Shown: positions 7,501-31,074 of the stretch, in pieces
Layout of the letters: every line of letters begins with the position of its first letter
Position numbering within the stretch: the stretch's first letter is position 1
IMG/VR virus record: IMGVR_UViG_3300017697_000004
Coordinates: 1 to 35,043 of that record
Direction: 5' to 3' (one strand)
Origin: a virus
DNA length: 35,043 nucleotides
The notes under the pieces: model-generated
Seen by the model: the letters and a program-made list of their open reading frames with translations, nothing else
Database searches by the model: none
Told to the model about the DNA's origin: nothing
Program-made: the position numbers and the translations under genes

Positions 7501-7524
7501 TTTTATTTTCTCCTGTTTTGTTAT

Positions 7525-7603
7525 GGGGTAATCTCATCAGCATAAAGCCCCTATTTAATCGATATTTTAATTTATGTATGGGTTATAAGGCTAACCCATT
7601 AAA
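7525..7603 (-). ncRNA. Pseudoknot element copy 4
   Basis: P1 AUGGGUU/AACCCAU, H position A, P2 CAUAAA/UUUAUG, joint with AUAUCGAUUAAAU, P3 GGGG/CCCC, loop CUGAUGAGAUUA. It ends shortly before the ribosome binding site of the gene at 7318-7500 and begins after the stop of the gene at 7613-7849. Confidence 0.82.
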
Positions 7604-7612
7604 AGCCCTTTA

Positions 7613-7849
7613 TTAGTCTATCAAGACCTTGTTACCGTTAGGCATAACTACATATTTGCCTATTTGATTTATAGTCATTTTCCGCCCATCACTTAAAGTA
7701 ATTGTAATATATGTTTCATCATCACTAAAATTTTTAGAATTATTGACCATATTTACAGAAGTGTTACTTGTTTCTATTGTTATATCATAATAACTGTTTC
7801 TGTTATCATTTAAATGTGAATCGGTGTCAAATTGTGTATTTACTATCAT
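7613..7849 (-). CDS. 78-residue early protein
   Basis: A small, probably all-beta protein: repeated alternating strands (YYDITIETSNTSVNMV, then YITITLSDGRKMTI, then KYVVMPNGNKVLID). ACAGGAGAAATAAA-type leader before the ATG. It lies between pseudoknot elements 5 and 4. No family recognised. Confidence 0.7.
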   Translation of the reverse strand: MIVNTQFDTDSHLNDNRNSYYDITIETSNTSVNMVNNSKNFSDDETYITITLSDGRKMTINQIGKYVVMPNGNKVLID

Positions 7850-7871
7850 TTTATTTCTCCTGTTTTGTTAC

Positions 7872-7943
7872 GGGGTAATCTCATCAGTATAACGCCCCTA
7901 TTTAATCGATATTTTAAGTTATAAACGCCTTAAGGGCGTTAAT
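7872..7943 (-). ncRNA. Pseudoknot element copy 5
   Basis: P1 ACGCC/GGCGU, H position U, P2 UAUAAC/GUUAUA, joint with AUAUCGAUUAAAU, P3 GGGG/CCCC, loop CUGAUGAGAUUA. P1 equals that of copy 1 while P2 and P3 differ, so the parts vary independently. It lies between the genes at 7949-8095 and 7613-7849. Confidence 0.82.
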
Positions 7944-7948
7944 CTTGT

Positions 7949-8095
7949 TTATTGTTGTTTGTTTTTTCTCAAGGCAATAATCCTTCCAATAAGTTCAGAT
8001 TTTGAAAGTTTAGCTAAGGTGTTAAAATGGGTTTCATCTTCATTTTTTAAAGTTAAATCCATATTTTCACCATAATAATCTTTAATTACTATCAT
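7949..8095 (-). CDS. 48-residue early protein, first gene of the leftward operon
   Basis: A short gene, MIVIKDYYGENMDLTLKNED to IIALRKNKQQ. Predicted small alpha/beta fold with a basic C-terminus. ACAGGAGAAAAAAA precedes the ATG. It follows an untranslated leader of about 320 nt and is the promoter-proximal gene. No family recognised. Confidence 0.65.
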   Translation of the reverse strand: MIVIKDYYGENMDLTLKNEDETHFNTLAKLSKSELIGRIIALRKNKQQ

Positions 8096-8415
8096 TTTTT
8101 TTCTCCTGTTTTGTTCTGTACTCACTATTTATACGGACTTGTAACCGTTGCGGAATTGCAGTTAGTTTACAGGAGGAGAATTTAACACTTGGTTATATTA
8201 GTTTGTATTCTAAAACACTCTATTCAATCCGCTTTATTCTGTCCTGTCTTGGTTTATTTGCGTGAGGCTCTTTGTAGCTCCTGTAAGTATTCGCACCTTA
8301 CAAGCACCCCTTAATGACTCTGGTGTGTGTCGGTGTGTTTTGGTTGGTTTCTCAGTTCTCAGCCTGTCCAACTCTCACACCTCTGTCAAATAACGTCATC
8401 AACTCTTTTTGATGA
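8096..8415 (-). other. Long untranslated leader of the early operon
   Basis: About 320 nt between the likely transcription start and the first gene, with no convincing gene on either strand. Near 8170-8181 the leader carries CTCCTCCTGT, complementary to the ACAGGAG site used by nine early genes, so it could sequester the first of them. The base composition is less A-rich than the neighbouring intergenic DNA. Function unknown. Confidence 0.4.
8396..8415 (-). promoter_or_regulatory. Hairpin/palindrome at the early transcript 5' end
   Basis: TCATCAA (8396-8402) and TTGATGA (8409-8415) form a perfect 7-bp inverted repeat around six bases. It starts right downstream of the early -10 box, so it is either a repressor operator or a 5'-terminal stem-loop that stabilises the early RNA. 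Confidence 0.5.
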
Positions 8416-8423
8416 TAAGAAAA

Positions 8424-8452
8424 TATATAACATTTACCCCTATTCAATGCAA
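8424..8452 (-). promoter_or_regulatory. Main early leftward promoter
   Basis: Minus strand: TTGCAT (8452-8447), a 17-bp spacer, TATATA (8429-8424). This is a good sigma-70-type match at the head of the long leftward gene chain. It would start transcription near 8416. Confidence 0.6.
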
Positions 8453-8812
8453 GTAATTATTTGCATATTATTACCAATTAATCAAATTAATTTGAAGTTA
8501 TAGAGGAGAAAATAGCAAAAAAAAATTCGATGCTACGCATAAAAAGCGTTTATTTGGGGGTATTAGGTCAAATGAGGTTTAAATAGGGGCGTTAAGTCGC
8601 TTATAATACCCCTGTCATCTCTTATCCTCCTCCTGAGAATTGATTTCTCGATGTTTTGGGGGTAGCATACTACTCAAACAAAATCGAGCCTTTAAAGGGC
8701 TATTTTGAGCCTCATATATTGAACTGACAAAGTCAAGTAAAATCTTCGATTAAGTTAATTTTTCTTTTTTCTTGTTTAATTGTTTGGGATGTTGTAGACG
8801 TGAGAGTTGCCC

Positions 8813-8832
8813 TTGAGATTCATTCTCATTTA
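8813..8832. promoter_or_regulatory. Operator-like palindrome A
   Basis: TTGAGAT then ATTCTCATTTA around two variable bases; the arms TGAGA/TCTCA are perfect with 5-bp spacing. It matches palindrome B, 75 bp away, at 18 of 20 positions. Likely a binding site for a phage regulator such as the XRE protein (inference). Confidence 0.5.
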
Positions 8833-8887
8833 CATTCTATACAACAAATAAAACTAACAAACAACTTGTTTATTAAATATATTCTAA

Positions 8888-8907
8888 TTGAGATAGATTC
8901 TCATTTA
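8888..8907. promoter_or_regulatory. Operator-like palindrome B
   Basis: Second copy of the 20-bp motif, with arms TGAGA/TCTCA; only positions 8-9 differ from copy A. The 75-bp offset is about seven helical turns, which would place both on the same DNA face. Confidence 0.5.
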
Positions 8908-9036
8908 GGGGGTAGGAGGGGATAGGCGACATTTCAGGTGGGGGGTCACCATTCCCTATAAAATGCAAAAACTAACTATGAAAAAATGAAATCAAAATAA
9001 CTTTGAAGGTATCTATTAAAATTCATAGATTTGGGT

Positions 9037-9693
9037 ATGACTAAGATTATGAAAAGACCTGAAAAAGACTTAGCTGTGGAGTTATTTGCCACACAACCTG
9101 ACTTAACTGTTGCTGAGGTTGCTGCAATGATTGGGGTTACCCCTAAAGCTGTTAAGAATTGGCGTGAGAATATTAACTTTATGGAAGCTATATATGATAG
9201 GTATATGGTTGAGTTTGGTGGTGAGTTGCCTGCTGTGTTAATGGCTATGGTTAGGGAGGCTAAGAGTGGTAATGTACAAGCAGGGAGGTTAGTGTTAGAG
9301 CATAGTGGGAAGTTAGTTAAGAATGTTAATGTAACTATAGATTCGCCTTTTGAAAAATTTATGAAGAAGGTTGATAATGCCGAAGTTGTTGATGCTGAGA
9401 TTATTGAAGAAGGTATGGATGTTATCTCTGAAGAGATAGAAGCTATAAGCCTTCCTGAGCGAAAGAAAGAAAGTCCTATTGCGAGAGTGCGTGAAGAAAA
9501 AAAGAAGATTCAAATATCTATAAAAGAAGAAGTGAAGCGACAGGATTACAATCGTAAGCAGAAGATATGGTATGAATGGAAGAAGCGAGCTAAAGCTGTA
9601 GGGGTAGAGCCTTTAAAAGCTAAAAGACCCACAAAGGGACAGCGTAAGGCTTGGGAAGATGAAATTGTAAGGAGAGAGAATGGCGAAGACTAA
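9037..9693 (+). CDS. terS: Terminase small subunit (HTH type)
   Basis: A 218-residue protein. Residues about 8-45 (LFATQPDLTVAEVAAMIGVT, then KAVKNWRENINFMEAI) form the helix-turn-helix seen in phage terminase small subunits of the phiBC6A51-like group. It is followed by a helical oligomerisation part and a long charged C-terminal region with WYEWKKRAKAVG. It would bind packaging DNA and hand it to the large subunit. The ATG at 9037 is preferred to the TTG at 9031; the binding site is weak. Unusually, the large-subunit gene is 2.4 kb away on the other strand. Confidence 0.75.
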   Translation: MTKIMKRPEKDLAVELFATQPDLTVAEVAAMIGVTPKAVKNWRENINFMEAIYDRYMVEFGGELPAVLMAMVREAKSGNVQAGRLVLEHSGKLVKNVNVTIDSPFEKFMKKVDNAEVVDAEIIEEGMDVISEEIEAISLPERKKESPIARVREEKKKIQISIKEEVKRQDYNRKQKIWYEWKKRAKAVGVEPLKAKRPTKGQRKAWEDEIVRRENGED

Positions 9694-9868
9694 AGCCACT
9701 AAAAAAGAGCTTCAGGACATTGTAGCAAGGTTAATTGCCAATGTTGCGATGTTAGAACAGAAGATTTCCTCATATAACACCTTATTTTCAATGTATGTTG
9801 GATTTAAGGGTGATGATAAGGATTTTCAAGCCTATTTAAAGGCAGAATTGGATAAAAAAGATGATTAA
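9680..9868 (+). CDS. Small coiled-coil protein
   Basis: A 62-residue protein. Residues about 8-35 (ELQDIVARLIANVAMLEQKI) form an amphipathic coiled coil. It starts inside the last codons of the terminase small subunit with AAGGAGAG upstream, so it is translationally coupled. Function unknown. Confidence 0.7.
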   Translation: MAKTKATKKELQDIVARLIANVAMLEQKISSYNTLFSMYVGFKGDDKDFQAYLKAELDKKDD

Positions 9869-10034
9869 GTGCTATAATTGCGATGCAGATATGATTTGGG
9901 GTAATGATTTTCACTTTGATGAGTGTGGGTACGAGGGTGAGGGTACAGTTACTTCTTTTACTTGCCCAAAATGTGATACTTATGCAGAATTTGTAATTCC
10001 TGAGAGGAATAGTAAGTACGCTGACTTTATGTAA
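9861..10034 (+). CDS. 57-residue zinc-ribbon phage protein
   Basis: A short gene, MIKCYNCDADMIWGNDFHFD to PERNSKYADFM. CYNC and CPKC form a zinc ribbon. The pattern MIxCxNCxxxMxWGxD.x..x.GxEGxGxVxxxxCxxC is common in small phage proteins of unknown function. It overlaps the previous gene by 8 nt and the end of the convergent gene at 10027-10275 by 8 nt, leaving no room for a separate terminator. Confidence 0.75.
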   Translation: MIKCYNCDADMIWGNDFHFDECGYEGEGTVTSFTCPKCDTYAEFVIPERNSKYADFM

Positions 10035-10275
10035 GCCCCATTAGTTCTATTTCGTCTTCTTCAAGGTATTCGCACATTTCGTTGTAGACTTCTTTAGTAA
10101 TTCTTATATCGCCTCTGTGTTCATCCTCAAACTCTTCGTATATCGGCTGTGAATTTGATTCCATTCTGTCTAATTGTGCCTGTACTGAGGCAAGTTGGTG
10201 GGTTATCTCTATATTTTGAGTAAAAATTAAGGTAAGTACGTCTTTCATTTCCTTGAACAGCTTAAATATCTTCAT
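10027..10275 (-). CDS. Small helical protein, possibly structural
   Basis: An 82-residue protein. Residues 1-42 are an amphipathic helix/coiled coil (ITHQLASVQAQLDRMES). The C-terminal part is very acidic (EEFEDEHRGD, YLEEDEIEL). AAAGGAGAAGT precedes the ATG. It is the last gene of the leftward terminase-portal cluster. Role unknown. Confidence 0.65.
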   Translation of the reverse strand: MKIFKLFKEMKDVLTLIFTQNIEITHQLASVQAQLDRMESNSQPIYEEFEDEHRGDIRITKEVYNEMCEYLEEDEIELMGLT

Positions 10276-10284
10276 ACTTCTCCT

Positions 10285-10803
10285 TTATTTTTTTAGTGCG
10301 TTATGAATACCCCTAAGAAACTTCCGTAAAACTTTTTTCCTTACAGTAAATGTTTTATCTGTGTGTATAAACTGTCTTGCAGGCACTTTAATATTCTTTG
10401 TGTTATTCTTAAAGAATACGCCCCTTTTAGTCTTTGCTTTCTTTACAGCTTGCCTACTTAGACCTGTAGGAATTTTCTTTGGTGTATATCCATCATTTTG
10501 ATACACTCCATATTTTTTTAGAGATACGCCTTTTTTAGTAGCTTTGATGCTATTTAAAAGCCGACCTGATGCGTTTAATGGAGGTTTATTCATAGATTGA
10601 TTCCTTATGCCTCTCATAAGCACAGTAGAGTCCTTGATAGGCTGCATCGGCTTTCCTGTGACTGTAGTTCCTGTAGAAACCTTGTGTTTCATCGTTTCTG
10701 CTTCCCTTTTTATGAGGTCTTGCATAACTTCTTCCTTTAGTTCCTTATATTTCTTTGCAAGTTTAGGAAAGCTAAAGTTAGTTTCTATTTCTATCTTAGG
10801 CAT
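10285..10803 (-). CDS. Phage virion morphogenesis / tail-completion protein (Mu gpG-like)
   Basis: A 172-residue basic protein with VTGKPMQPIKDSTVLMRG, then LNASGRLLNSI, YQNDGYTPKKIP and a late VPARQFI motif. The order GxxM-x-pL...L..SG.L..SI....G.Y...G......R.FxG/H is that of the phage virion morphogenesis family (Mu gpG, tail completion/HK97 gp10-like). It probably joins tail to head. Its ATG overlaps the stop of the portal gene. Confidence 0.72.
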   Translation of the reverse strand: MPKIEIETNFSFPKLAKKYKELKEEVMQDLIKREAETMKHKVSTGTTVTGKPMQPIKDSTVLMRGIRNQSMNKPPLNASGRLLNSIKATKKGVSLKKYGVYQNDGYTPKKIPTGLSRQAVKKAKTKRGVFFKNNTKNIKVPARQFIHTDKTFTVRKKVLRKFLRGIHNALKK

Positions 10804-12109
10804 CAGTTTCTTCTGCTGTAGGCTCTTCCTTCATAGCTTGTAAATGCTCATCTTCCATAGCTTCTCTGTTTGACATTATGATAGCTTCGGCTTCAGATTT
10901 ACTTAAATCTCCGTTATATTTCATAAGCAGCCCAATTTCATCAATCATATGATGATTTAGCATATGCTCATCCATCAAGATTTGGTCTTGGACTGTTTTT
11001 GGATACTCAGGCTCTTTAAAGTCAATCTTCAACTCTTCAGGTAAAGAAATATTGTTGTATGATGCAATCTTTTTCTCAATATCATATAAATCATACTCAT
11101 ACATACGATAAAGGTCTAAATCGTCTTGGTAATCTTCAAAACGCTCTAAATCTTTAATCTTGAGTGCAATTCCTGATGGAGTTTCTCCACCATCTTGAGC
11201 AAATTGCACATATAGATGGTTATTCTGAGCAACTAAGTCCAACTGAAATTTAACAGACTCAATTACTGCTTGAATATCGCCTTCAGGAGCAGCAATACCA
11301 AAAGTAGACCCTTCGGGTAAGTCAAGTATTGTATCACTCCCTGCTCGTTCTAATTTCTTATCCCCATACATCCCTGTAATGAATGGTTGCCCAAACATTT
11401 GGAATCTCAAGCCTAATTGAAGCTCTGTCATCGTTATATTTACCTGCTCATTGCAGCTAACAATGTCATTTGCTCCTTCTACGAAGAAAGAATCAATTTG
11501 GTCTTCTCTGTGGGTGAATAAAAATGGTATTACGCCATATCCGTGTTCATACTCGCCCATTATATTACCGTCTTCATCAAAATGTATATATCTTTCTTTA
11601 TCCCAATAAGCATAGTGTAGCTTTTCGGTAGCAGAAACATCGCTTACGTTCATCATTATCGGATATGTTATTGCTTCAGGCACAAAGGGGTTCTCGCCAA
11701 GATGCACATCAAAGTAATAAACAGGTCTATAATCAAAGCAGGGTTGGGGGAGGTCATCTCGGTAAACAACTTGCGTTGCTACAGACCCTACAAGACGAGT
11801 CATTCTTTCAATGTGCTTCATTTTAGTGTCTTTTTTACGAGTCAAAGAGGAGTAAGACTCGCTCACATTGCGAGAAGCCCCTACTGTGTAAATTCTTGAC
11901 ATCTTGTTGATAAACCTGCGTGTAAAATTCGCATTATACAAGGGAATCTCTCTAAAAGCATCAGCAGAAAAGTAATCATCAATATATTTTTCTGTTTCTG
12001 TGCCTGTATAGTAATCAAGGAGCTTGCGAATCTCATTTCGCCTTTCTTTTGCCATATTTAACTTATAGTCCTTGACCGATTCTTGTATTATGTCCATCGG
12101 ATTCATCAT
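10796..12109 (-). CDS. Portal protein
   Basis: A 437-residue protein. N-terminal helices (MAKERRNEIRKLLDYYTGTE) precede NANFTRRFINKMSRIYTV, a typical start of SPP1/phi29-like portals. A central beta region contains VIPFLFTHRED. A long helical part follows (QVNITMTELQLGLRFQMFGQ, then SGIALKIKDLERFEDYQDDL) and an acidic tail. Twelve copies would form the ring through which DNA enters the head. The start overlaps the terminase stop as ATGATGA. It is on the strand opposite to scaffold and coat. Confidence 0.85.
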   Translation of the reverse strand: MMNPMDIIQESVKDYKLNMAKERRNEIRKLLDYYTGTETEKYIDDYFSADAFREIPLYNANFTRRFINKMSRIYTVGASRNVSESYSSLTRKKDTKMKHIERMTRLVGSVATQVVYRDDLPQPCFDYRPVYYFDVHLGENPFVPEAITYPIMMNVSDVSATEKLHYAYWDKERYIHFDEDGNIMGEYEHGYGVIPFLFTHREDQIDSFFVEGANDIVSCNEQVNITMTELQLGLRFQMFGQPFITGMYGDKKLERAGSDTILDLPEGSTFGIAAPEGDIQAVIESVKFQLDLVAQNNHLYVQFAQDGGETPSGIALKIKDLERFEDYQDDLDLYRMYEYDLYDIEKKIASYNNISLPEELKIDFKEPEYPKTVQDQILMDEHMLNHHMIDEIGLLMKYNGDLSKSEAEAIIMSNREAMEDEHLQAMKEEPTAEETDA

Positions 12110-13428
12110 CGTGAAATTACTCCTAACTCTCGTTGTCTAATTGGAAATCTATTTAAAAAGAAATATCTGAAAGCATCCATACTGTGGTCGTGCCTTCCAT
12201 CCTTAACAGGGTCAGGTTTTAAGTCCTTACCTTCTCCTGACTCAGGGTATCTGTAATTTTCTAAATCTTCTGCTAACCCCATACACTTTTTGTCTAAATG
12301 TACAAACCTCTGTCCTTGTGCATTTTCTATAAACCCTCTAACGTGGCTTACTCCTGATGCAATACTCCTTGACACTTTATCTCTAATACTTCTTACGTGT
12401 ATGCCTTTACGTCTAAAAATTTCAATATCCCCTAATCCTGATTGTCCTTGTGCTTGCATACCTGCAGGGTCACCATAATATTCCCTTACATAGTAATGTT
12501 TATTTTTAATCATATCAGCGAACTCGTCAGTTTTAATGTTTGGCTTGTGTACAATCTCATCTATTACATTTATGTGCATTAATCCACCCACCATATAAGT
12601 CTGAAACCATATTGCTGCAGGCATCCTAAATCCAAAGTCTATCGAACAAAAAGTCGGGAAATTAGGATTGTATGGAAACTCTCCCATATCTAAAGCCCTA
12701 TCAAAGGGATAAACCCTGCCCTCAAACGAAGTAAACATTGCCCCATACTCCTGCTCATAAAGCTCTTTAGACATATTTCGTTTACGTTCAACAAGGAATT
12801 GGTCTTTTTTCCCATCAGGGAATACTACATCATTATCCCAAGTTGGGGCTTGATGAGATTCCCATAAATCATCTTCTTTGCCAAGCAAGAACAAATCATA
12901 TATCCAATTAAACCCTTCAGGGGTAGTAATGAATATTGCTTTGCCTTTTCTGTCAGACAAGGTTGGCGAAAGATACATATCCCATATCTTCCTCTTCATT
13001 TTAGCCACCTCATCCATAATGAGTAAATCTAACCCCTCTCCAACAAGTGAATCAGGATTATCAGCAGATTTAGCCTCTACAGTAGTTCCCCACTTAAATT
13101 TTATAAATCTTTCTTTTTCAGAGGCTCTTTCAATGTCATTAGCACGACCAATTACCATTTTTTGCCATACTTCTCTGAACATTAAGTCTGCTTTATCATA
13201 GGATAACCCAACTAACCATATTTTTTTGTTTGGCTGTGAGGCATAATAGGTTGCTTCCATCGCAGACGAGGTGGTTTTACCAAATCGCCTTCCACAGACC
13301 ATAACGAAGAATCTCGCTGTGTCTTTATCGGGAAAATGGAGCTTTCTTTGACCTAAATGGGGCTTGTAGCCCATAAAGTCAAACCATTGCTGCTTATATT
13401 GTATTTGATTATCCATTAATACTTGCAT
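12106..13428 (-). CDS. terL: Terminase large subunit
   Basis: A 440-residue packaging motor with both domains. ATPase: Walker A GRRFGKT (46-52), Walker B LLIMDE (135-140) with catalytic Glu, coupling motif ITTPEG (168 on). RNase H-like nuclease: Asp264 (CSIDFGF), Asp320 (YYGDPAG) and Asp414/Asp418 (DGRHDHSMDAF). It powers DNA into the prohead and cuts it at the portal. The start could be 13428 or the ATG four codons later; neither has a clear binding site. Promoter sequences lie in the divergent gap 13429-13519. Confidence 0.93.
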   Translation of the reverse strand: MQVLMDNQIQYKQQWFDFMGYKPHLGQRKLHFPDKDTARFFVMVCGRRFGKTTSSAMEATYYASQPNKKIWLVGLSYDKADLMFREVWQKMVIGRANDIERASEKERFIKFKWGTTVEAKSADNPDSLVGEGLDLLIMDEVAKMKRKIWDMYLSPTLSDRKGKAIFITTPEGFNWIYDLFLLGKEDDLWESHQAPTWDNDVVFPDGKKDQFLVERKRNMSKELYEQEYGAMFTSFEGRVYPFDRALDMGEFPYNPNFPTFCSIDFGFRMPAAIWFQTYMVGGLMHINVIDEIVHKPNIKTDEFADMIKNKHYYVREYYGDPAGMQAQGQSGLGDIEIFRRKGIHVRSIRDKVSRSIASGVSHVRGFIENAQGQRFVHLDKKCMGLAEDLENYRYPESGEGKDLKPDPVKDGRHDHSMDAFRYFFLNRFPIRQRELGVISR

Positions 13429-13459
13429 CTTACAAGTAAAGTAATTTAAGTTATCCTAC

Positions 13460-13490
13460 TTGTATTATGCAACATATTGTATGGTACAAT
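13460..13490 (+). promoter_or_regulatory. Rightward late promoter with palindromic -10 region
   Basis: TTGTAT (13460-13465) and TACAAT (13485-13490) are 19 bp apart, and TGG just before the -10 box makes an extended -10. ATTGTA-TGG-TACAAT (13476-13490) is a perfect 6-bp inverted repeat covering the -10, so a regulator binding it would control the scaffold/coat operon. A second inverted repeat, TACAAGTA/TACTTGTA, spans 13433-13464. Confidence 0.5.
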
Positions 13491-13519
13491 TTCCAAATAA
13501 CAATATATAGGAGGACAGT

Positions 13520-14044
13520 ATGTCCGAAGAACAATCCGTAGCTACCGAAACAGTAAGTGAGGAAACTACACAAGAAGCTCCTACAAATTCGCCTGAAGGA
13601 GCATTAATTGCAGAAAGCAAAAAGTATCGTAAGAGGGCACAGGAAGTAGAATCTGAAAACTCAAAACTCAAAGCTGTAATAGAAGCACAGAAAGAAGCTG
13701 AAATGTTAGCAGATGGCAAGAAAGATGAATTGATTGCCAAATACAAAGCTAATGCTGAGGCTGATGCTGAGGATGCTAATTGGGCAAGAGAGTTTAAAGC
13801 TAATGAAAGAGCTAAACTTTTAGAGCTACACCCTGAAGAGGATAGGGAAAAATTGGCAGAGCTGCCATTTGACACCCTTTCTTTTATAACTAATAAAATT
13901 AATAATGCAAAAGCTAATGTTCCTGAAGTCGCAGGAAGTTCAAGACAGCCTGAAAAGCCTTTGGGTGATTGGACTAAGATGAGTATGCAGGACAAAAAAG
14001 ATAATTGGGATACAATTATAGCTAATGCAAAAAAACAAAAATGA
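13520..14044 (+). CDS. Scaffold protein
   Basis: A 174-residue, highly charged, mostly helical protein. It has an acidic disordered start, then a coiled coil (ESKKYRKRAQEVESENSKLK, then AVIEAQKEAEML), and a basic end (DNWDTIIANAKKQK). Length, composition and position directly before the coat gene are those of phage head scaffolds, which guide coat assembly and then leave. AGGAGG stands 5-8 nt before the ATG. Confidence 0.8.
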   Translation: MSEEQSVATETVSEETTQEAPTNSPEGALIAESKKYRKRAQEVESENSKLKAVIEAQKEAEMLADGKKDELIAKYKANAEADAEDANWAREFKANERAKLLELHPEEDREKLAELPFDTLSFITNKINNAKANVPEVAGSSRQPEKPLGDWTKMSMQDKKDNWDTIIANAKKQK

Positions 14045-14054
14045 GGTAACATAA

Positions 14055-14996
14055 ATGGCAACAACTACAGGTTTAGCGAATCCTGCAGCATCGCAGGCTT
14101 CAGATACTGAATTAGCAGTATTTATCCCTGAAATATGGGCAGATGCAGTAAGAGCTTCTTTTAAAAAGAGCTTAATAATGGGCAACTTAGCAACTGATTT
14201 TTCTTCACTTGTTTCAGGTGGTGGTGACCAAGTTCACATTCCATCTGTAGCAGATGTAGCAGATGCAGCGACTAAAGCTCCTCACGTTCCTGTTAATTAT
14301 ACTAATGCTACTGAAGATAAATTAAGTATTGCACTAACTTCTCATCAATATGCTTCAGCTATGATTGAAGATATGGGTGTAGTTCAGTCAAGTGCTGATT
14401 TACTTTCTATGTACGCAGATTCTATTGGGTATAAATTAGGATTGGGCGTTGAGGTAGCTATTGAGGCAGCATTGGCAGGCACAACAGAGTGTATCAATAT
14501 TGCCGGTAACACAGTAGCTAAAACTATTGATGCTGCAACATTGGCACATATGAGTAAAGTAGCGATGGAAAACAATGCTCCACTTAATGAGTGTGTATTA
14601 GTTCTTAACCCTACTTTATATGCGTCACTATTTAGAATTGATGACTTTATTCACATTTCTAAAACAGCTGCAGTAGATGTTCCTAATGGTCAAGTTGGAA
14701 ATATTATGGGTATGCCTGTATTCCTTTCTAACAACATTTCATCTACAAACCATAATGATGCAGTAGATTCAGATGATGGTGCTTTAAATAACGCCAATGT
14801 TCTTGGTGGTTTCTTATTGCATAGGTCTGCTTTAGGTATAGCCTACAGCAAAGCTCCAACTGTAAACTCTAAATATGATATGGATTACATAGCACATAAA
14901 TTAGTAGGTGATACTATTTATGGCGTATCATTACTTCAAGATGCTTCCCAAACTAAATGTTGGGGAATTGTTGAAGAAGGCACTACAGCTTGGTAG
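14055..14996 (+). CDS. Major capsid protein
   Basis: A 313-residue protein directly after the scaffold. Features usual for HK97-fold coats: an N-terminal helix region (ELAVFIPEIWADAVRASFKK), a spine helix (GYKLGLGVEVAIEAAL), Ala-rich segments, NPTLYASL, and a C-terminal strand region with HRSALGIAYSKAPTV. AGGTAAC precedes the ATG. The fold assignment rests on these general features and gene order, not on a specific match. A strong hairpin follows the gene. Confidence 0.85.
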   Translation: MATTTGLANPAASQASDTELAVFIPEIWADAVRASFKKSLIMGNLATDFSSLVSGGGDQVHIPSVADVADAATKAPHVPVNYTNATEDKLSIALTSHQYASAMIEDMGVVQSSADLLSMYADSIGYKLGLGVEVAIEAALAGTTECINIAGNTVAKTIDAATLAHMSKVAMENNAPLNECVLVLNPTLYASLFRIDDFIHISKTAAVDVPNGQVGNIMGMPVFLSNNISSTNHNDAVDSDDGALNNANVLGGFLLHRSALGIAYSKAPTVNSKYDMDYIAHKLVGDTIYGVSLLQDASQTKCWGIVEEGTTAW

Positions 14997-15014
14997 AGTA
15001 GTTAGTTATAAAAT

Positions 15015-15043
15015 GTATATGGGGGGCAATAGCCCCCCTATAC
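15015..15043 (+). terminator. Strong G6/C6 hairpin after the coat gene
   Basis: GTATA, GGGGGGC, loop AATA, GCCCCCC, TATAC: a 12-bp stem with one bulged T. There is no T-tract on the plus strand, so complete termination is unlikely. It more likely protects the 3' end of abundant coat mRNA or trims read-through into downstream genes. Confidence 0.6.
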
Positions 15044-22235: not shown

Positions 22236-22445
22236 ATGAAGATAAAATTAAAAGATAAGGCTAACCCTATAGGTTTAAACTCAGGGTGGTGCTTTATGAA
22301 TACAGGTTTTTGTTCAACTATTATAGAAAGTATTAACTTAGGCAAAGAGGTCAATGTAGACAGAGTTCCTAAAAAGGCTTTTGATTTGGTTGAAGAAGTT
22401 AAAAAACAAACCAAAAAACAAAACAAAACGAAAGGAGATAAGTAA
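22236..22445 (+). CDS. Small basic tail-region protein
   Basis: A 69-residue basic protein, MKIKLKDKANPIGLNSGWCF then a Lys-rich tail (KKQTKKQNKTKGDK). Similar short proteins with a KxxxxVDxVPxxAxxxV string (here NVDRVPKKAFDLV) occur beside tail-tube genes. The stop overlaps the next start by 1 nt (TAATG). Confidence 0.6.
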   Translation: MKIKLKDKANPIGLNSGWCFMNTGFCSTIIESINLGKEVNVDRVPKKAFDLVEEVKKQTKKQNKTKGDK

Positions 22446-23470
22446 TGGCAATTAATGCGAGTGCTTATTCACCAAAACAATTCTCGTTTCTGATAGCTGA
22501 ACAAGATGATTTTGGAACTTTTAATGCAGAGTCAGGTGGTGCAAGTACAAATTGGACTGCAGTTGATGTTGATTCTATCGGCAGCCCATCATTCAATCTT
22601 AATCAGGCGTTAGAGCCAAGAAATGGAAGCAGGGTCTTGCAGGCAACTGATTTCTTCCAAGATAATAAAGCTAAAGTTATGGAGATGTCTGTTAGTGGTA
22701 CTGCTACAACAGAGGTGTTAGACCTATTGCTTGGCAATATTACACAAGGGGATACTTCTCCTTATTTACTGCAATGCGATTCAGGCTCTCAAACATTTAC
22801 AACAGGGACTGAAAACCAAACAGCAAGTCAAATTCTTTCTATTGCATATTTATCTCCCTCTTCAGGGAATACTTTAGGCTTTAAGGATTGCTTTTGTACT
22901 TCAGTAACATTGAATGGTGATGCAGGAACTGAAGGAGGAAGAATTAAATTTTCTGCTACCTTTAAGTCAGGCAGTTTACCTCAAGATTTAACAGAAGCCA
23001 CTATTACAACTATAGACCAAGCGATTACAAGTAATAATTATTTTATGAGTAATTGGGTTTCAGACTATAGAGTTTTAGCTAATATTAGTGATGTCCTTGT
23101 AAATAGCTTTTCATTAACCATTGAAAACGATATGGTTTTTATGGGGGCTACATCAACAGGGTATGAATCAACAGCGAGAGTTGGGGAAATATCTGCAACA
23201 GCAGACTTTTCAGTTAAATATGATGACAATACAGATGTCTTATTTGAGAATTTCCACGACCAAGTTTCAGGAGCAGCAGCAGGTGAGGGGCAAACTCTTA
23301 TGGCTACTGACAGTACGCCTTCTGATGGTGAATTTGAATTTAAATTCGCTAAATCTGTAATGACTAATGTTGCATTTAATGAAGGTGATGCTATGATGCT
23401 AGATGTTTCAGTTAAGGCTGTTGGGGCAGGCATTGGCTCAACTGATGCTTTATTTGAAGTTGCTTGTTAA
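22445..23470 (+). CDS. Major tail (tube) protein
   Basis: A 341-residue beta-rich protein with N-terminal YSPKQFSFLIAEQDDFGTFN, repeated Thr/Ser-rich strands, and position directly upstream of the tail-assembly chaperone and tape measure. AAAGGAGATA precedes the ATG. Long Ser/Gly/Thr segments suggest one or two Ig-like surface domains. Function by order and composition. Confidence 0.72.
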   Translation: MAINASAYSPKQFSFLIAEQDDFGTFNAESGGASTNWTAVDVDSIGSPSFNLNQALEPRNGSRVLQATDFFQDNKAKVMEMSVSGTATTEVLDLLLGNITQGDTSPYLLQCDSGSQTFTTGTENQTASQILSIAYLSPSSGNTLGFKDCFCTSVTLNGDAGTEGGRIKFSATFKSGSLPQDLTEATITTIDQAITSNNYFMSNWVSDYRVLANISDVLVNSFSLTIENDMVFMGATSTGYESTARVGEISATADFSVKYDDNTDVLFENFHDQVSGAAAGEGQTLMATDSTPSDGEFEFKFAKSVMTNVAFNEGDAMMLDVSVKAVGAGIGSTDALFEVAC

Positions 23471-23774: not shown

Positions 23775-24202
23775 ACGTAATTGCTGATGGTTGTGGAGGG
23801 TGTCAGTATCATAACTACCCATATAAGGCTCAATTACCTGTTTTAATCGAAGGAAAGCGACCTATTAGGGAGTTTACCTGTGATGAGGATGTTTGGGGCG
23901 TAATTGACCTACTTATAGAGGAAACTAAGCAAATGAACAATAAGGGCAATGAGTTTGATGTAGCTAAGTCAGTCAATTCTCAGTTGCCCTTTTTCTCTTG
24001 TAGGAACAAAGTTTTGAAGAATGAACATCAGAAAGACATACAAAGATATATTTATTGTAAGGAATTTGGCGTTCCTGCATATAGTGGAGCATATGGTGAC
24101 CAACCTTCCAAGTGGGTTGAGAAGTCTTTTGTAATTAAAAATGCTCTTGCAAAGAAAGAAAAGGATTTAATAGATGGCAGCAGACAAAAACATAACGATT
24201 AA
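23747..24202 (+). CDS. Tail assembly chaperone frameshift extension (gpT-like)
   Basis: In the -1 frame relative to the short form, an uninterrupted frame runs from about 23736 to 24202. It encodes VIADGCGGCQYHNYPYKAQL, EFTCDEDVWGVIDLLIEETK and a basic end. The expected fused product is about 238 residues, as in lambda gpG-T. GGG-to-GGG re-pairing in the P site is possible; the A-site pairing is poor, so the slip is not a perfect heptamer. An alternative is independent initiation at the ATG at 23933 with GAGGA upstream. The end overlaps the tape-measure start. Confidence 0.6.
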   Translation, partial: GREALQLEINVIADGCGGCQYHNYPYKAQLPVLIEGKRPIREFTCDEDVWGVIDLLIEETKQMNNKGNEFDVAKSVNSQLPFFSCRNKVLKNEHQKDIQRYIYCKEFGVPAYSGAYGDQPSKWVEKSFVIKNALAKKEKDLIDGSRQKHND

Positions 24203-26288
24203 GTTTCTTGCTAAAGGCGATGACAAATTAATTAAAGCCTTCAAGAACCTTGCTACATCCCAAAAGAAATTCAATAATACAAGTGACAATACTACAAAAT
24301 CTACAAGTAAGGTAAACGCTTCATTTCAAACTCTTGCTCTTCAGGTTAAAAATACAGTAGGCAGCTTTAAGAAACTTGATGTAAGCCAAGCCACTATCAA
24401 TAAGGCTATGAAGGGCAATAAAGTAGCCATTGATAAAGTTAGGCAGGCTATGAAACGCCTTGATGCTCAGAATGGAAAGACAAGGAAAGGTGCAAGATTA
24501 TTAGACAATACCTTTGCTACCCTTCGTTCTAAAATGCTTTTGTTTAGCTTTGCAATGTCATTGGGTGGAAGACAGATTGCAATGTTTGCTCAAGAGGCTG
24601 CTAAAGTGCAAGATATGGAAAGGGCTTTTACAAATCTTTCAGGGGGGGCAGAAAAAGCATCTATTGCTGTTGATAAATTAGGGGCTGCTACTAATGGAAC
24701 TATGAGTAAATTTGATTTGTTCCAACAGGCTAATAATGCTATGATACTTGGCGTAAGCAAAAACTCAGATGAGATGGCTCGTATGTTTGATGTAGCACAA
24801 AGACTTGGAGCTGCTCTTGGTAAAGATACTAAACATTCAGTTGAATCGCTTATTACGGGTATTGGTCGTCAATCTCGATTAATGCTTGATAATATTGGTA
24901 TTATTGTTAAATCAGATGAGGCATATCAGGCTTATGCAGCAGAATTAGGAATTAGTGCTGATAAATTAAGTGATGCTGAAAAGAAACAAGCGTTTCTTAA
25001 TGCAACTATGGAAGCAGCAGAGAAGAAGCTCCTCGATGTAGGAGATGAGGTTCTTTCTTATAACGCAAAGCTACAGATTGCAGGTGCGAGAATGGCTGAT
25101 GCAGGCGTGGCTATTGGAAATGTATTGTTGCCTGCCTTAGCATCCTTAGCCCTTTTCTTTACAGACACAGATAATATAAGACGTTTTACAACAGCTCTTT
25201 TAGGGCTTGGAGCAGGGATTGCATTTGTAAATAGAAAAGCTATACAGGCAAGGATTTCAGTTATAGCGATGAATATGTCTTTCAAGATGAGCAGGGCTGC
25301 TTTGATAGCATCGGGGTGGGGGGTGGCAGTTTTAGTTCTTGGAGAATTAGCAGCAAAATTATTAACAACAAAAGAAGCTAATGATGGGCTAACAGGCTCT
25401 TGGAAAAGAACGAGTGTTGCAATGTCCCCAATCTTGTTTAGTTACAAGAAGTTAATTGACCAAAAGGATAGATTAATAAAGGCTACAAAAGATGAGATGG
25501 CAGTCCTTGATGTCCCAAGCCCTCTAATTGAAAGTATGTCCACAGAAGAAAGGCTTGCTTTTGAAAAAAGGGCAAGACAAGACCAAGCGATTGAAGATGC
25601 TCGAGCCCGAAGAGCAGAAGAAAGTGAGATAGAAAATCAAAGGGTTGCAGAGGAGTTTAGCAGAGAGGCAGAATTAGCGAGAAAAGTAGAGGAGCTTAGG
25701 AGAGCAGCATTAGAAAGGTATGAGGAAGGGCAGAAAAAAATAAAGGAGTTAAATAAAGAAAGAATTAAGTCTGAAAAAGAGGCTACTAAAGCGATTGTTT
25801 CATCATCATTCTCTCAAGCTATGGCTTATGACAATGCAGGAGAAGCAGCACAAGCAGCAGTAAGGGATGTTATTTCAGCTAAAATACAATCTATGATTGC
25901 AAGTTTAATGGAAGATGCTATTGCTAAATTTGGTTGGCTTGGAATACCATTGGCAGCTACAGCAGGGGCAGTTGCAGGTTCACTTGTAGGGCAAGCACAA
26001 AGACATTGGAAGATGGATAAGTTTGAAGATGGTGGTCTTGTTGGTGGTCGTAGACATTCACAAGGTGGCACTATGATAGAAGCAGAGCAAGGTGAATTTG
26101 TAATGTCAAGAAATGCTGTAAATGCTGTAGGCATAGAAGCAATGAATCGTATCAATGCAGGTGGAGGTGCAGGCTCAGTAAACGTATCCTTTGCAGGCAA
26201 TGTTATGTCCCAAGACTTTATAGAAGATGAGGCTATTCCAATGATTAAAGAAGCAATCAGGCGTGGTGCTGACATAGGAGTTTCTTAA
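24174..26288 (+). CDS. Tail tape measure protein
   Basis: A 704-residue protein, the longest helical one here. It has Lys-rich helices at the start, hydrophobic Ala/Leu segments in the middle (GVAIGNVLLPALASLALFFT, then LLGLGAGIAFV), a long charged coiled coil around residues 455-540 (AEESEIENQRVAEEFSREAE) and a Gly-rich C-terminus. It sets tail length; at about 0.15 nm per residue the tail would be near 100 nm. It overlaps the chaperone extension by 29 nt. Confidence 0.9.
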   Translation: MAADKNITIKFLAKGDDKLIKAFKNLATSQKKFNNTSDNTTKSTSKVNASFQTLALQVKNTVGSFKKLDVSQATINKAMKGNKVAIDKVRQAMKRLDAQNGKTRKGARLLDNTFATLRSKMLLFSFAMSLGGRQIAMFAQEAAKVQDMERAFTNLSGGAEKASIAVDKLGAATNGTMSKFDLFQQANNAMILGVSKNSDEMARMFDVAQRLGAALGKDTKHSVESLITGIGRQSRLMLDNIGIIVKSDEAYQAYAAELGISADKLSDAEKKQAFLNATMEAAEKKLLDVGDEVLSYNAKLQIAGARMADAGVAIGNVLLPALASLALFFTDTDNIRRFTTALLGLGAGIAFVNRKAIQARISVIAMNMSFKMSRAALIASGWGVAVLVLGELAAKLLTTKEANDGLTGSWKRTSVAMSPILFSYKKLIDQKDRLIKATKDEMAVLDVPSPLIESMSTEERLAFEKRARQDQAIEDARARRAEESEIENQRVAEEFSREAELARKVEELRRAALERYEEGQKKIKELNKERIKSEKEATKAIVSSSFSQAMAYDNAGEAAQAAVRDVISAKIQSMIASLMEDAIAKFGWLGIPLAATAGAVAGSLVGQAQRHWKMDKFEDGGLVGGRRHSQGGTMIEAEQGEFVMSRNAVNAVGIEAMNRINAGGGAGSVNVSFAGNVMSQDFIEDEAIPMIKEAIRRGADIGVS

Positions 26289-29200
26289 TGTCTTTTGAAG
26301 ATGATATACAGGGTAAGAATACTCAACTATATCCTGTAGTAAAGATAGATGGTACTTGGTATTCAACCAACAATGTAACTGTTGAGTATGAAGACGTTCA
26401 ATATTACTGCAAACCTATTCTTATGAATATTCCTTCTATCAAGGAATCAGTTGATGTAGAGTCAAGAAGATTTAAGATTTCCAATGTATCGCTTCAATTC
26501 AATAACTTTTCTTTTGAGGGGGTTAGATTCTCTGACCAACTTTCTGAAACATCTTTAATTAATAAAGAAGCTACTATTTACTTTAAGAGTCAGTCAGACC
26601 TTAAAGAAGTTTTTAAGGGTATTGTTAGGCGTATATCTCACGATGATGAAAAAGTCAAGGTAGAACTTGAAGATTTAACAGAGAAAAAAGCACATAAGGA
26701 TTTACCTGAGATGTATGGGGATAATGATTATTTGCCTGAAAAAACAAGGAATAAGCCTAAAAATATAGTTTATGGATATGTAGATAGGTGTCCATTAATA
26801 AAAACAGGTAAAGAATTTATAGAGTTTACACAAGATGGTGAGGGTTACGAAGAAGACACTCTTACTGAATTAGACATTGACTATAAGCCTATTGCAGGGT
26901 TAGAGCCTACTGAATTTTCGATAGGGGCTCATAATTTTAATAGCTCAGGGTTAGTTGCAACATCAGACAGAATAGGGATTTCATCCAACTCTATATCTGA
27001 TAAGTCCCTCGAATCTATACCAAAAATTGAATTATTGGCGAATAAGCAGGGAGAGATAACTTCTTCTGCTTTTATTAGGGATTTTATAGGGATGAATGTT
27101 TTTGGAGGTAGCCAATATGTAATAAAGTTTTATGAAGGGGAGGATTACCTTTTCCCATCCGACAATATAGAGTCTTTATCTCACGATATATATTATGCCT
27201 TTAATTCAGATGGAAGCCCAAATTATTCTCAAGTAGGTTCACAGGAAATGAGTGACTTGGCTGATAATAGTGAATTAGGTTTTTCTTATACTAAAGACCT
27301 TACTACAAATACAGGCATAAGGATTCAAGGATATTCTGATAATGACCAAACTAATTATCATTATATTAGATTTAACCTCAATACATTAGAGAATGATTTT
27401 GATTGCGAAACATATATTATTTGCAAGATAAGAGCCAATCCTCACGAGGGGACATTAGATGGTTACCTTCCTTTTCTTGAAGGACAATCCTATCCTGATG
27501 GAGTTGATTTTGATATAGATGGATGGGAGGCTTATAGCGTATGGGTAGGAGAAATACCTGTCATAGCATCTGACAGTTTTTCAAATAGTGCAGGCTTTCA
27601 GGTGGATGACAATGAATATGGTAGGCAAATATATTTGAATGGGTCAATGAGTTTCAATAATTATAGTAGTGGGGATGAGGTTGAATTACGCCAACAGAAG
27701 GGGAATAAGGAAGGGCTTGGCTATTTCCATACATTGAATGAGTTTTCCTATCTTAACATAGGGGCAGTAAAGTCGCATTATGATAATGGAGTTGATGGCA
27801 GTAAGAATCATATCCACGATTTATTTATACAGGAAGCTCATCTATATCATATAGCCACTCTAAATAAATTATTAGGACACGATTATTACGCCAATATAAA
27901 AGGCAGAATAAATACATTCGATGACCACCCTCAATTACAAGTTGGGTCAGTTGATTATTTTCAAGAAAATTCAGAACAGGTGGCTGACTTTTTAGATAGC
28001 TCATTATTTAATGAAGCCCCTCAATATATACAGGAATATGCTACAGTATACCCTAATCTTAATACTACAGATTCTGCAGTATTAATGAACTATATTGACC
28101 AACTTTACGAAGTAGATTTTATACAAAACCCTATTGATATAATTTATGATTTAGTTAGAGGTGAGATTGGACACGAGAATATTGATGTTAATGAATATGA
28201 AGAAGCAAAGCTAGCTCACTCTGATTGGAAATTTGGCTTTACTGTAAACAAGAAAATTTCATCAAAGAAACTTATTGAAGATATAGCTAAATCTACTAAA
28301 TGCTTTCCTAAATTTAAGAATGATGGTAGCTTTGGTTTTAATACAGTTAAAGATAGTTATACTGTAGAAGGGGATGATAGTGATTATGCAGGTGCTATTC
28401 CAATTAAAGAATCAGAAGTTATATCTTACTCATTTAAGAAAACTAAGCCTGAGCAGATTTACAAGAAGGTAACTGTATCTTACAATAAGGACTATGCACA
28501 AGATTCATATCTCAAAACAACTACCCCTATTGATTTAGGTTCTGATGATTATTATGGTATTGAAGATTCTGATGATGCACATTTAGAATTTGAATCAGAC
28601 TATATTAGACATAAGGAAACTGCTGATTTATTGGCATCTTTCTTATCAGAGCAATATAAAAATGACCATTTAATATTTAACCTTAAGCTGCCACTACAAT
28701 ACATTGATTTGGAGATTGGGGATTTAGTTAAGTTTGAAACTCTATTTCAAGGTGTAAAAAGTTATGGCATAACGTATACTGATACTACTGATGTGAATGG
28801 TCAATTTAGATACCCATTGTTTATGGTAACTTCTACTACAAAAAATTTAGATTCAGTATCTGTTGAGTGTATGCAACTGCATCATTTAGAAGAATCTTTG
28901 CCTACTGGTACTGATTATGCTACATATAGTGGCGATGATATTGAAATAAGTGGGAATGTAGAATTAATTGGTGGTAATATGTCCCAAGCAATCAATATAT
29001 TAGTAGATGATGATTATGATTATTCAGGGATACTTTCAGGTAGCTTTTATTTTAAAGTATCTGGCATTGAAAGACCTGAAAATCCAGAGTTTGGTGATAA
29101 TGATATATTGGCTGTGTCCCATCAATATAGTTTAAATTTTGATGATGGAATACCAAATCATTTTACTTTACGTTGGGCGAATGAATCTGATTATAATGGG

Positions 29201-29500
29201 GATGGCATTGCTGATGACGTTAATGCAGATATAGATGTTCCATTTGGACTTGAAGAAGGACAACAAATAACAATTACTTTATCGTCATATACTATTCCAG
29301 AACCTTCATCAGAAACCCCCATTGGTGATGTTAATAATGATAGTATTGTTAATGTATTAGATGTAGTTCAAATGGTAAATGCAATTTTAGGTGACCCCAA
29401 CCCTAATCTTGATTGGAATCAAGCTGATTTAAATGCTGATGGTGGGCTTAATATTTTAGATGTCGTTCAACTCGTTAATAATATATTAACACAGGATTAA
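26288..29500 (+). CDS. Tail hub / tip protein with C-terminal dockerin-like repeats
   Basis: A 1070-residue protein directly after the tape measure. The N-terminal 170 residues (ATIYFKSQSDLKEVFKGIVR, VELEDLTEKKAHKDL) are baseplate-hub-like; residues about 630-880 (ISSKKLIEDIAKSTKCFPKF, IDLEIGDLVKFETL) match gp27/gpJ-type hub domains. The last 55 residues hold two repeats, GDVNNDSIVNVLDVVQMVNA and ADLNADGGLNILDVVQLVNN. These follow the 12-residue Ca-binding loop plus helix of type I dockerins, and are probably a module acquired from a host-type surface protein. It may bind a host surface partner. Confidence 0.78.
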   Translation: MSFEDDIQGKNTQLYPVVKIDGTWYSTNNVTVEYEDVQYYCKPILMNIPSIKESVDVESRRFKISNVSLQFNNFSFEGVRFSDQLSETSLINKEATIYFKSQSDLKEVFKGIVRRISHDDEKVKVELEDLTEKKAHKDLPEMYGDNDYLPEKTRNKPKNIVYGYVDRCPLIKTGKEFIEFTQDGEGYEEDTLTELDIDYKPIAGLEPTEFSIGAHNFNSSGLVATSDRIGISSNSISDKSLESIPKIELLANKQGEITSSAFIRDFIGMNVFGGSQYVIKFYEGEDYLFPSDNIESLSHDIYYAFNSDGSPNYSQVGSQEMSDLADNSELGFSYTKDLTTNTGIRIQGYSDNDQTNYHYIRFNLNTLENDFDCETYIICKIRANPHEGTLDGYLPFLEGQSYPDGVDFDIDGWEAYSVWVGEIPVIASDSFSNSAGFQVDDNEYGRQIYLNGSMSFNNYSSGDEVELRQQKGNKEGLGYFHTLNEFSYLNIGAVKSHYDNGVDGSKNHIHDLFIQEAHLYHIATLNKLLGHDYYANIKGRINTFDDHPQLQVGSVDYFQENSEQVADFLDSSLFNEAPQYIQEYATVYPNLNTTDSAVLMNYIDQLYEVDFIQNPIDIIYDLVRGEIGHENIDVNEYEEAKLAHSDWKFGFTVNKKISSKKLIEDIAKSTKCFPKFKNDGSFGFNTVKDSYTVEGDDSDYAGAIPIKESEVISYSFKKTKPEQIYKKVTVSYNKDYAQDSYLKTTTPIDLGSDDYYGIEDSDDAHLEFESDYIRHKETADLLASFLSEQYKNDHLIFNLKLPLQYIDLEIGDLVKFETLFQGVKSYGITYTDTTDVNGQFRYPLFMVTSTTKNLDSVSVECMQLHHLEESLPTGTDYATYSGDDIEISGNVELIGGNMSQAINILVDDDYDYSGILSGSFYFKVSGIERPENPEFGDNDILAVSHQYSLNFDDGIPNHFTLRWANESDYNGDGIADDVNADIDVPFGLEEGQQITITLSSYTIPEPSSETPIGDVNNDSIVNVLDVVQMVNAILGDPNPNLDWNQADLNADGGLNILDVVQLVNNILTQD

Positions 29501-29502
29501 TT

Positions 29503-31074
29503 ATGATAACTTATGGTAATGGCGAAGTAATAGGATTAGAAAATATACAAGGCTTTGATATTCGATTTAAAGGCAGTATAACAATAGACCCTGCACAAGA
29601 TAACTGGATTATCCAAGCTAATAAGAATCGTATAATAGGCATTTGCCTTAATCAGACATCTTCAGCATTACTTTTTACATACACAGGTGAGCTTAGAATC
29701 CTATCTGCTAAGTACATTAGGAACAATGAGCAGCATAGGTCAAGAATTACTTTACAAGGGGTTGATTTCTGGGGCTTAGATAGAGAGAAGTGGGAAGATG
29801 ATGGTTCATTATGGGGTACTCGTAATGGAACATATCTTGTTGGCACTAAAAAGAGAAAAACTACTGTAAAGAATTTAGAAAATGGGGTATCTAAAGTTCC
29901 TGTAATAGATGTTGGCTCAAAAGGATTTGATGCACCTTATGTTCCACCTCCCCCACCTCCACTTGTAAACACCTATAGCTTAAACTTTGATGGTAGTGAT
30001 GATTATGTGGATATTGGGGATTCTGATGATTTAATGGTAGGAACAAATGTAACTATTTCTACTTGGTTTAAAAATTCAAGTGGCACAAGAGCATATATGT
30101 TTCAAAGTCGCAGAGGCTCTACATCAACTAATTTATCTGTAGGTGTAAATATGAACGCAAGTGGAGTTGAAGAAGCAGGTTGGATAGGGATAGTAATATA
30201 TACAGGCTCAGGGCATTCATACGCATCTGTTGATGGTAATGTAGATGATGGAGCTTGGCATCATTTCGCAGCAACTGTTAGCGATGGAAGTCAAAAATTA
30301 TATCTTGATGGTAGTGAGGTTGCAAGTGCTTCTAATGCTTTCCCCAATGATGCTTCAGCTGACCATTCTATAATTGGTTCTAATAGTGGAAATAATAGGT
30401 TTATGAATGGCAATATTGATGAGGTTGCATTATGGAATACTGTATTGGATGCAGATGCTGTAACTGCTATTTACAATAGTGGTACACCTACTAATTTAAG
30501 TTCTGATTCAGGCGATTATGATAATTCTGCTAACCTTCAAGGCTATTGGAGAATGGGAGATGGAACTTTAGATACCTATCCATTAATTGCAGACCAAACA
30601 AATGCTACATTGGGTAGCAATTTACAGGATGCAACATTTAATAATAGTGATTTATTAGGGTTCACAGGGGCTACAGCTACAGGGTTTACAGCAGTTAATG
30701 CAGATTCAGGAGTAGGGGCAAATGATAATGCTTATGGAAAGGCTTTATCTTTAACAGCAGGTGATATATATAAACTATCTTGGACAACAACTATCAATTC
30801 ATATGATTTAGTTCAACAATTAGATGTAGCAGTTGCAACTTCTGTTGGAGGTGGTTCAGGCGATACGACTACAGCAGGTACACATACTGCATCAGGGGAT
30901 TATGTAAATTATTTCCAAGTGGCAAGTACAAATACATATTATATAGCCTTTAGGTTGGGAGGGAATAGGGAATATGACTTTACCATATCTAATGTTAGCC
31001 TTCAAAAGGTCAATGGTAATGCAGGTCTTATGAATAATATGGTATCAGGAGATATAGAGGAGGACACACCTTGA
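29503..31074 (+). CDS. Tail fibre with LamG-like domain
   Basis: A 523-residue protein. Residues 1-145 are a virion-attachment domain. A six-proline linker (148-153) precedes a LamG/concanavalin-like domain at about 156-290: YSLNFDGSDDYVDIGDSDDL, VTISTWFKN, DGAWHHFAATVSDGSQKLYL, GNIDEVALWN. A second jelly-roll-like domain with carbohydrate-binding character follows (WTTTINSYDLVQQLDVAVAT). It probably recognises host surface glycans. Confidence 0.8.
   Translation: MITYGNGEVIGLENIQGFDIRFKGSITIDPAQDNWIIQANKNRIIGICLNQTSSALLFTYTGELRILSAKYIRNNEQHRSRITLQGVDFWGLDREKWEDDGSLWGTRNGTYLVGTKKRKTTVKNLENGVSKVPVIDVGSKGFDAPYVPPPPPPLVNTYSLNFDGSDDYVDIGDSDDLMVGTNVTISTWFKNSSGTRAYMFQSRRGSTSTNLSVGVNMNASGVEEAGWIGIVIYTGSGHSYASVDGNVDDGAWHHFAATVSDGSQKLYLDGSEVASASNAFPNDASADHSIIGSNSGNNRFMNGNIDEVALWNTVLDADAVTAIYNSGTPTNLSSDSGDYDNSANLQGYWRMGDGTLDTYPLIADQTNATLGSNLQDATFNNSDLLGFTGATATGFTAVNADSGVGANDNAYGKALSLTAGDIYKLSWTTTINSYDLVQQLDVAVATSVGGGSGDTTTAGTHTASGDYVNYFQVASTNTYYIAFRLGGNREYDFTISNVSLQKVNGNAGLMNNMVSGDIEEDTP

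Follow-up and report, generated by a model that had tools for sequence, protein, structure and literature searches.

What a phage tail protein would gain from ending in a dockerin, and what that dockerin would hold on to, are the questions raised by the locus described here. The window, i.e., the whole stretch of viral DNA that was analyzed, comprises 35,043 nucleotides (positions 1 to 35,043 of IMG/VR record IMGVR_UViG_3300017697_000004). An open reading frame at 26288-29500 (+ strand) encodes 1070 amino acids, and its C-terminus carries a type I dockerin (29324..29497, +; residues 1013-1070). The original prediction had placed two dockerin-like repeats at 29322-29497, where a tail hub of 1070 residues ends; its coordinates are correct within two bases, and the repeats are borne out by Pfam and by the intact calcium loops. 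A search with the type I dockerin profile, which had been suggested as a check, gives a match above the cut-off: PF00404 (Dockerin_1) aligns with residues 1013-1067, i.e., 29324-29488, at an E-value of 1.1e-7 and with 32.4 bits against a curated cut-off of 22.9, and the alignment spans profile positions 2-57 of 57, covering both repeats. In a genome-wide scan with the same profile, the hub dockerin scores 39.1 bits.

Loop 1 (DVNNDSIVNVLD; 29327..29362, +) has the residues D-V-N-N-D-S-I-V-N-V-L-D, and loop 2 (DLNADGGLNILD; 29426..29461, +) has D-L-N-A-D-G-G-L-N-I-L-D. Both are intact, with D/N/D/N/D at positions 1, 3, 5, 9, and 12, which we take to be the calcium ligands. Positions 11 and 12 of each dockerin repeat are described as the cohesin-recognition residues in PMC5141474 and PMC5301203; in the hub, alignment A2 and the dyad counts given below place Val-Leu at these positions in repeat 1 (29354..29359, +) and Ile-Leu in repeat 2 (29453..29458, +). 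A chance or low-complexity motif is ruled out by the Pfam E-value of 1.1e-7 and by shuffling, since a dockerin profile based on 15 of its relatives, with the window left out, gives the hub 60.3 bits and the best of 2,000 shuffled hubs 10.5 bits. Its relatives with solved structures belong to the type I dockerins of cellulosomes (4fl4_A, E 1.9e-6). Structure prediction, also suggested at the outset, is less clear: the AlphaFold model of the hub places a helix after each loop (1023-1034 and 1056-1068), but the pLDDT of this region is only about 52-73 (10-residue blocks, 1021-1070), which is a low confidence. The full-length model, with an overall pLDDT of 44, is too poor for a fold search.

The hub core (residues 1-871; 26288..28900, +) was modeled with AlphaFold on a deep alignment of 83 sequences (A6); in the model, 341 residues reach a pLDDT of at least 90. 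The top Foldseek ranks for this model are held by pb3 of phages DT57C and T5 (5.8e-14 to 2.3e-13; E 2.2e-13 for T5 pb3, 7zqp_b), followed by lambda J (8xcg), Mu-type hubs, and the hubs of GTAs. VIA gives a Z-score of 18.9 to T5 pb3 over 467 aligned residues, 20.4 to the Mu hub 9ki1_G, 17 to 21 to Mu gp44, T4 gp27, and others, and about 16-21 to many hubs overall. A PHROG search returned no hub-family match for the ORF, and PF13550 (Phage-tail_3) occurs below its cut-off in two hub relatives. Directly upstream lies the gene for a tape measure protein (24174..26288, +; phrog_3779, E 2.2e-11), which is preceded by that for a tail tube protein (22445..23470, +; PF18906, E 4.8e-7). Judged by the predicted structure, the ORF at 26288-29500 indeed encodes a tail hub, with a core that folds like T5 pb3, Mu gp44, and T4 gp27; the initial assignment as a hub is thus upheld by the Foldseek and VIA matches and by the adjoining tape measure gene.

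In T5, a pb3 trimer closes the tail tube, the pb3 C-terminus begins the central fiber, and release of the linker after the pb3 core opens the tube (PMC10038345). Since the last pb3 residue aligned with the hub is residue 720, the variable stretch (residues 872-1012; 28901..29323, +), delimited by comparisons of length and identity, and the dockerin occupy the position at which the T5 central fiber starts.

The gene after the hub (29503..31074, +) encodes a conserved N-terminal domain of approximately 140 residues, which is found beside the hub across the family, and a LamG domain (residues 163-320), as defined by Pfam and family comparison. The LamG region at 29989-30462 looks like a recent addition, none of the others among the 103 matches being that long, and many copies of the gene finish with a Gly/Ser-rich tail ending in GGY. 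The LamG protein as a general partner of the dockerin is out, since a LamG-sized extension is confined to the window copy among the 103 matches.

The dockerin is a conserved feature of this hub family. Scans with hub-core peptides gave 139 loci, from which 16 ORFs running off their contigs were set aside; among the remaining 123 hub ORFs, all with the 3' end on the contig, the profile detects a dockerin in 117. As the 123 include near-copies of single phages, they were also clustered at 90% core identity, and the dockerin is present in 86 of 92 clusters, which rules out a one-off acquisition by one phage. By scan, the counts are 16/17, 63/63, and 38/43; the first scan used core peptides only. 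The seed alignments of the latter two (A3 and A4) stop before the dockerin but take their members from loci that had initially been detected by their dockerins, so these counts may favor dockerin-bearing subfamilies. Within the same loci and the window, 118 of 120 dockerin ORFs are hubs, the other two being the genes next to the hub in L294 and L298. A scan with just the dockerin found 156 viral stretches, the best 80 of which give 75 new loci, 55 of them hubs of this family. Among the 50,697 phages of INPHARED, no hub relative was found and dockerins are almost absent, the window dockerin having one weak match (38%, E 5e-3) and the L033 dockerin none.

The position of the module is equally constant, the dockerin ending 0-5 residues before the stop codon in 102 of the 117 hubs. 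The preceding stretch ranges from 18 to 392 amino acids in the 101 hubs measured (111 dockerin-ending hubs less 10 with no recognizable core end), and its identity drops much faster than that of the core. Between hubs sharing 70-80% identity over the last 280 core residues, identity is 45% in the stretch and 52% in the dockerin; at 60-70% core identity or less, dockerin identity is approximately 0.43-0.46. Several loci count against the reading developed below: L036, L289, and L291 have complete hubs and no detected dockerin at the locus, L282/L283 carry the dockerin near the ORF N-terminus, that of L286 lies 145 residues before the ORF end, and that of L297 matches weakly, at 4.4 bits. The L299 hub is also devoid of a dockerin, its contig ending 10 bases past the hub stop and before a next gene that might carry one. 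In L294 and L298, the hub has none and the next gene ends in one; these next-gene dockerins (L294 6176-6832 and L298 6116-6790) have different dyads, LR and KH, which may point to a hub split over two genes and to another host cohesin.

Some observations on these viral contigs stand apart from the hub. L006 and L018 are one contig of 33,238 bases, in which the hub starts at the contig end and finishes at its beginning; the record is therefore probably a complete, circularly permuted genome. A second dockerin protein is encoded in L149 (5122-6426), L176 (5074-6411), and L181 (5071-6411); judged by its motif, it is a trypsin-like serine protease that looks secreted, and the protease is succeeded by a dockerin and then a charged tail. 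Its dockerin part also occurs in L129, L141, L143, L147, L148, L156, and L158. L167 (3088-6288) encodes 1066 amino acids with a dockerin near the end, a subtilisin-type protease by the look of its sequence.

The original prediction had suggested that the module might hint at host taxonomy, and that the idea would fail were there no homologous repeats in bacteria. Such repeats are found, and the best of them point to Ca. Neomarinimicrobiota: among the best 80 dockerin loci from 84,980 bacterial and archaeal species genomes, 63 lie in this phylum (61 titled Neomarinimicrobiota or Marinimicrobia, together with L075 and L106, whose genomes G202 and G036 belong to the phylum search). PF00404 matches occur in 151 of 245 genomes of the phylum, and 27 of these 245 hold 62-223 first-look candidates each, at most about 25 per genome having been scored and nearly all of those having passed. 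These dockerin-rich genomes (among G016-G036 and G195-G203) measure 1.1-3.2 Mb. The candidates in the rich marine genomes sit mostly at protein C-termini, and 18 of 20 Pfam-selected dockerins from rich genomes end at most 5 residues before the stop. The dockerin contigs of L042 (a Pelagibacteraceae bin) and L110 (a Rickettsiales bin) look like Neomarinimicrobiota contamination, and that of L110 is taken as such, sharing its N-terminal stretch with L098 from a Neomarinimicrobiota bin and having an almost identical dockerin; a PF00963 search of the L042 and L110 genomes gave no cohesin match.

The recognition dyad matches that of the dockerin-rich lineage. Val-Leu or Ile-Leu occupies positions 11-12 in 180 of 212 phage loops and, with bacterial dockerins picked by Pfam score alone, in 36 of 40 loops from 20 dockerin-rich genomes of the phylum against 10 of 40 loops from 20 of its other genomes. 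At the DNA level, the 20 kb following window positions 1-15043 were searched against the phylum; 51 of the 63 matches listed hit the dockerin and are spread over 24 of the 27 rich genomes, and the remaining 12 lie elsewhere in the 20 kb. Another 14 genomes with dockerins, of which 13 belong to other phyla and one (G202) to this phylum, gave no match to the same query; the 13 mostly have a higher G+C content, and this may account for some of the difference. The likeness is 67-88% over short stretches and may reflect a common motif combined with A+T-rich codon use instead of transfer. In the search of these 20 kb for shared DNA or spacers linking phage and host, only the dockerin strip is matched in number.

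Hub genes within the phylum have also been sought. The hub core matches seven loci, with distant hub relatives, in 6 of the 245 genomes. All six complete ORFs end at the core, devoid of a dockerin; the ORF at the remaining locus is cut by the contig edge. A prophage link to the host was set aside. These six genomes have 0-7 dockerin matches each, and the module tracks the dockerin-rich lineage rather than the hubs of the phylum generally. Two results count against our reading: the hub core was not found in the 27 dockerin-rich genomes, and no dockerin-bearing hub was found in the collection of genome contigs. The shared dyad and the share of best matches nevertheless make a dockerin-rich member of Ca. 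Neomarinimicrobiota the likely host, which gives the early hint a definite direction.

A dockerin calls for a cohesin, and the search for cohesin-like domains in candidate hosts that had been proposed is rewarded. PF00963 matches occur in 151 of the 245 genomes of the phylum and in 25 of the 27 dockerin-rich ones. In the larger host proteins L302, L307, and L309, a cohesin is combined with a type IX sorting domain (Por_Secre_tail), both above their cut-offs, and L309 additionally has a dockerin. A recurrent host protein of approximately 250 amino acids (L322, L324, L326-L330, and L333; domains scanned in L322 and L330) begins with what resembles a signal peptide and contains a cohesin-like domain as well as a type IX sorting domain, which makes it a candidate for a general surface cohesin; the cohesin-like domains score 23.8 and 21.1, just below the Pfam cut-off of 24.1, which weighs against our reading. 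Since the sorting domain marks proteins for export, the host cohesin proteins are expected to reach the cell surface. No phage-encoded cohesin emerged as a partner: PF00963 found none in 45 viral records, several of them 30-37 kb, in a search that cohesins unlike PF00963 would escape.

On balance, we favor the view that the dockerin at the tail tip, being of the host type, lets the phage dock on cohesins that the host displays. The hub would be a trimer-type protein closing the tail tube, so that, if it is as trimeric as T5 pb3, each tail would bear three dockerins. Its C-terminus runs from the core through a fast-changing stretch into the dockerin; at this place, T5 pb3 passes into the central fiber. 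By host mimicry, the tail-tip dockerins could plug into host cohesins that are exported and displayed via type IX sorting domains, and this docking would hold the tail on the cell; tension on the linker that joins core and dockerin may assist in opening the hub, resembling the movement of the same linker in T5. The place of the dockerin and its match to the host repertoire suggest that it may be a receptor-binding element of the phage. Receptor binding and fiber docking were the two uses originally envisaged, and the evidence leans to docking on host cohesins because host-type cohesins with surface-sorting domains exist and none was found in the 45 viral records.

Three other functions have been considered, among which fiber docking ranks ahead of adhesion devoid of a receptor function, and a structural cap comes last. 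As an assembly joint of the virion, the hub dockerin would hold a separate fiber or adhesin via an unrecognized cohesin-like domain of the phage. The dockerins of L294 and L298 sit on a separate protein right behind the hub, just as pb4 comes after pb3 in T5. Also in favor of such a joint, the C-terminus of the T5 hub joins the central fiber protein pb4 (PMC10038345). However, the PF00963 search of the 45 viral records speaks against it, as does the persistence of the conserved downstream gene beside dockerin-less hubs (L036, L289, L294, and L298); an internal joint, moreover, need not copy the dyad and the extreme C-terminal position of host dockerins. We regard this explanation as unlikely.

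The dockerin might instead pick up shed host cohesin proteins or anchor virions to scaffold-rich particles, thereby cloaking the phage or raising the number of encounters. Dockerin-rich hosts are predicted by their domain content to export cohesin proteins, some of them large (L302, L307, and L309); the module, however, sits at the tube-closing hub tip, not on the head or the tube, which fits a role in adsorption and makes mere adhesion rather improbable. Still more doubtful is a calcium-dependent cap that finishes the hub and has no cohesin partner. The calcium loops persist as the remaining positions diverge, to dockerin identities of approximately 0.43-0.46, as a cap would predict, but the dyad is no calcium ligand and is nonetheless kept in 180 of 212 loops in the form found in the dockerin-rich lineage and not in other members of the phylum, and distant hubs manage without the module.

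Extending host-cohesin docking to the family as a whole, we tentatively propose, at slightly less than even confidence, that these marine phages adsorb via the host's own cohesin-dockerin surface system, the receptor being a protein-docking scaffold and not a porin, sugar, or pilus, with host range following cohesin specificity. If true, this would be a new mode of adsorption, and Neomarinimicrobiota would run a large cell-surface dockerin system. To our knowledge, the phylum is mostly uncultured and its phages are little known. A conserved tail-tip dockerin provides a clue to both host and receptor that is readable from sequence. It predicts what the host partner should be, namely cohesins bearing a type IX sorting domain, and this prediction can be tested with small recombinant domains and no culture of phage or host. 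The finding also exposes the very large dockerin repertoire of the 27 rich genomes.

Dockerins and tail hubs are each known, and what is new, within the literature searched, is a conserved tail-tip dockerin together with a matching host repertoire. This combination is not described in that literature, which includes PMC9377139 and PMC9012536 but from which most subscription papers are missing, so that its silence carries little weight, and no paper on the dockerin repertoire of Neomarinimicrobiota or Marinimicrobia was found in it. In reports on cultured phages, dockerins appear as a tailspike part modeled like a dockerin-CBM entry and as a BLAST note on gene 40 (PMC5967307 and PMC3558961); unlike the present case, the passages on these gene products describe neither a conserved hub dockerin nor a cohesin partner. 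The word dockerin is absent from a review of phage adhesion devices (PMC7291167), in which the lambda gpJ C-terminus is assigned a receptor-binding function. The core of gpJ is of the hub type, like that of the window hub (Foldseek, 8xcg). We know of no dockerin in lambda gpJ.

The closest structural counterpart is pb3 of T5 and DT57C, with which the fold is common over the whole core (467 residues, Z 18.9), as is a C-terminal extension after it. T5 pb3 continues with two FNIII domains to pb4 (PMC10038345), whereas the present hub continues with the variable stretch and the dockerin; unlike in T5/DT57C, the tape measure and hub ORFs of the window abut, with no Dit gene between them. Among dockerins, the cellulosomal type I modules of C. 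thermocellum (PF00404; PDB 4fl4, 1daq, and 1ohz) have the same two calcium-loop repeats, each followed by a helix (predicted in the hub), the same C-terminal position, and near-symmetrical recognition dyads. The dyad of C. thermocellum dockerins is Ser-Thr, as seen for 4fl4_A in the alignment with the hub, in contrast to the Val/Ile-Leu of the phage hub, and cellulosomal dockerins sit on secreted enzymes, whereas here the module sits on a virion hub and its partner cohesin is a candidate. The secreted-protein dockerins of Ca. Neomarinimicrobiota have in common with the phage hub the dyad, the extreme C-terminal position, and the likeness at the DNA level; many of these proteins have a signal-peptide-like N-terminus, whereas the phage hub is a structural protein.
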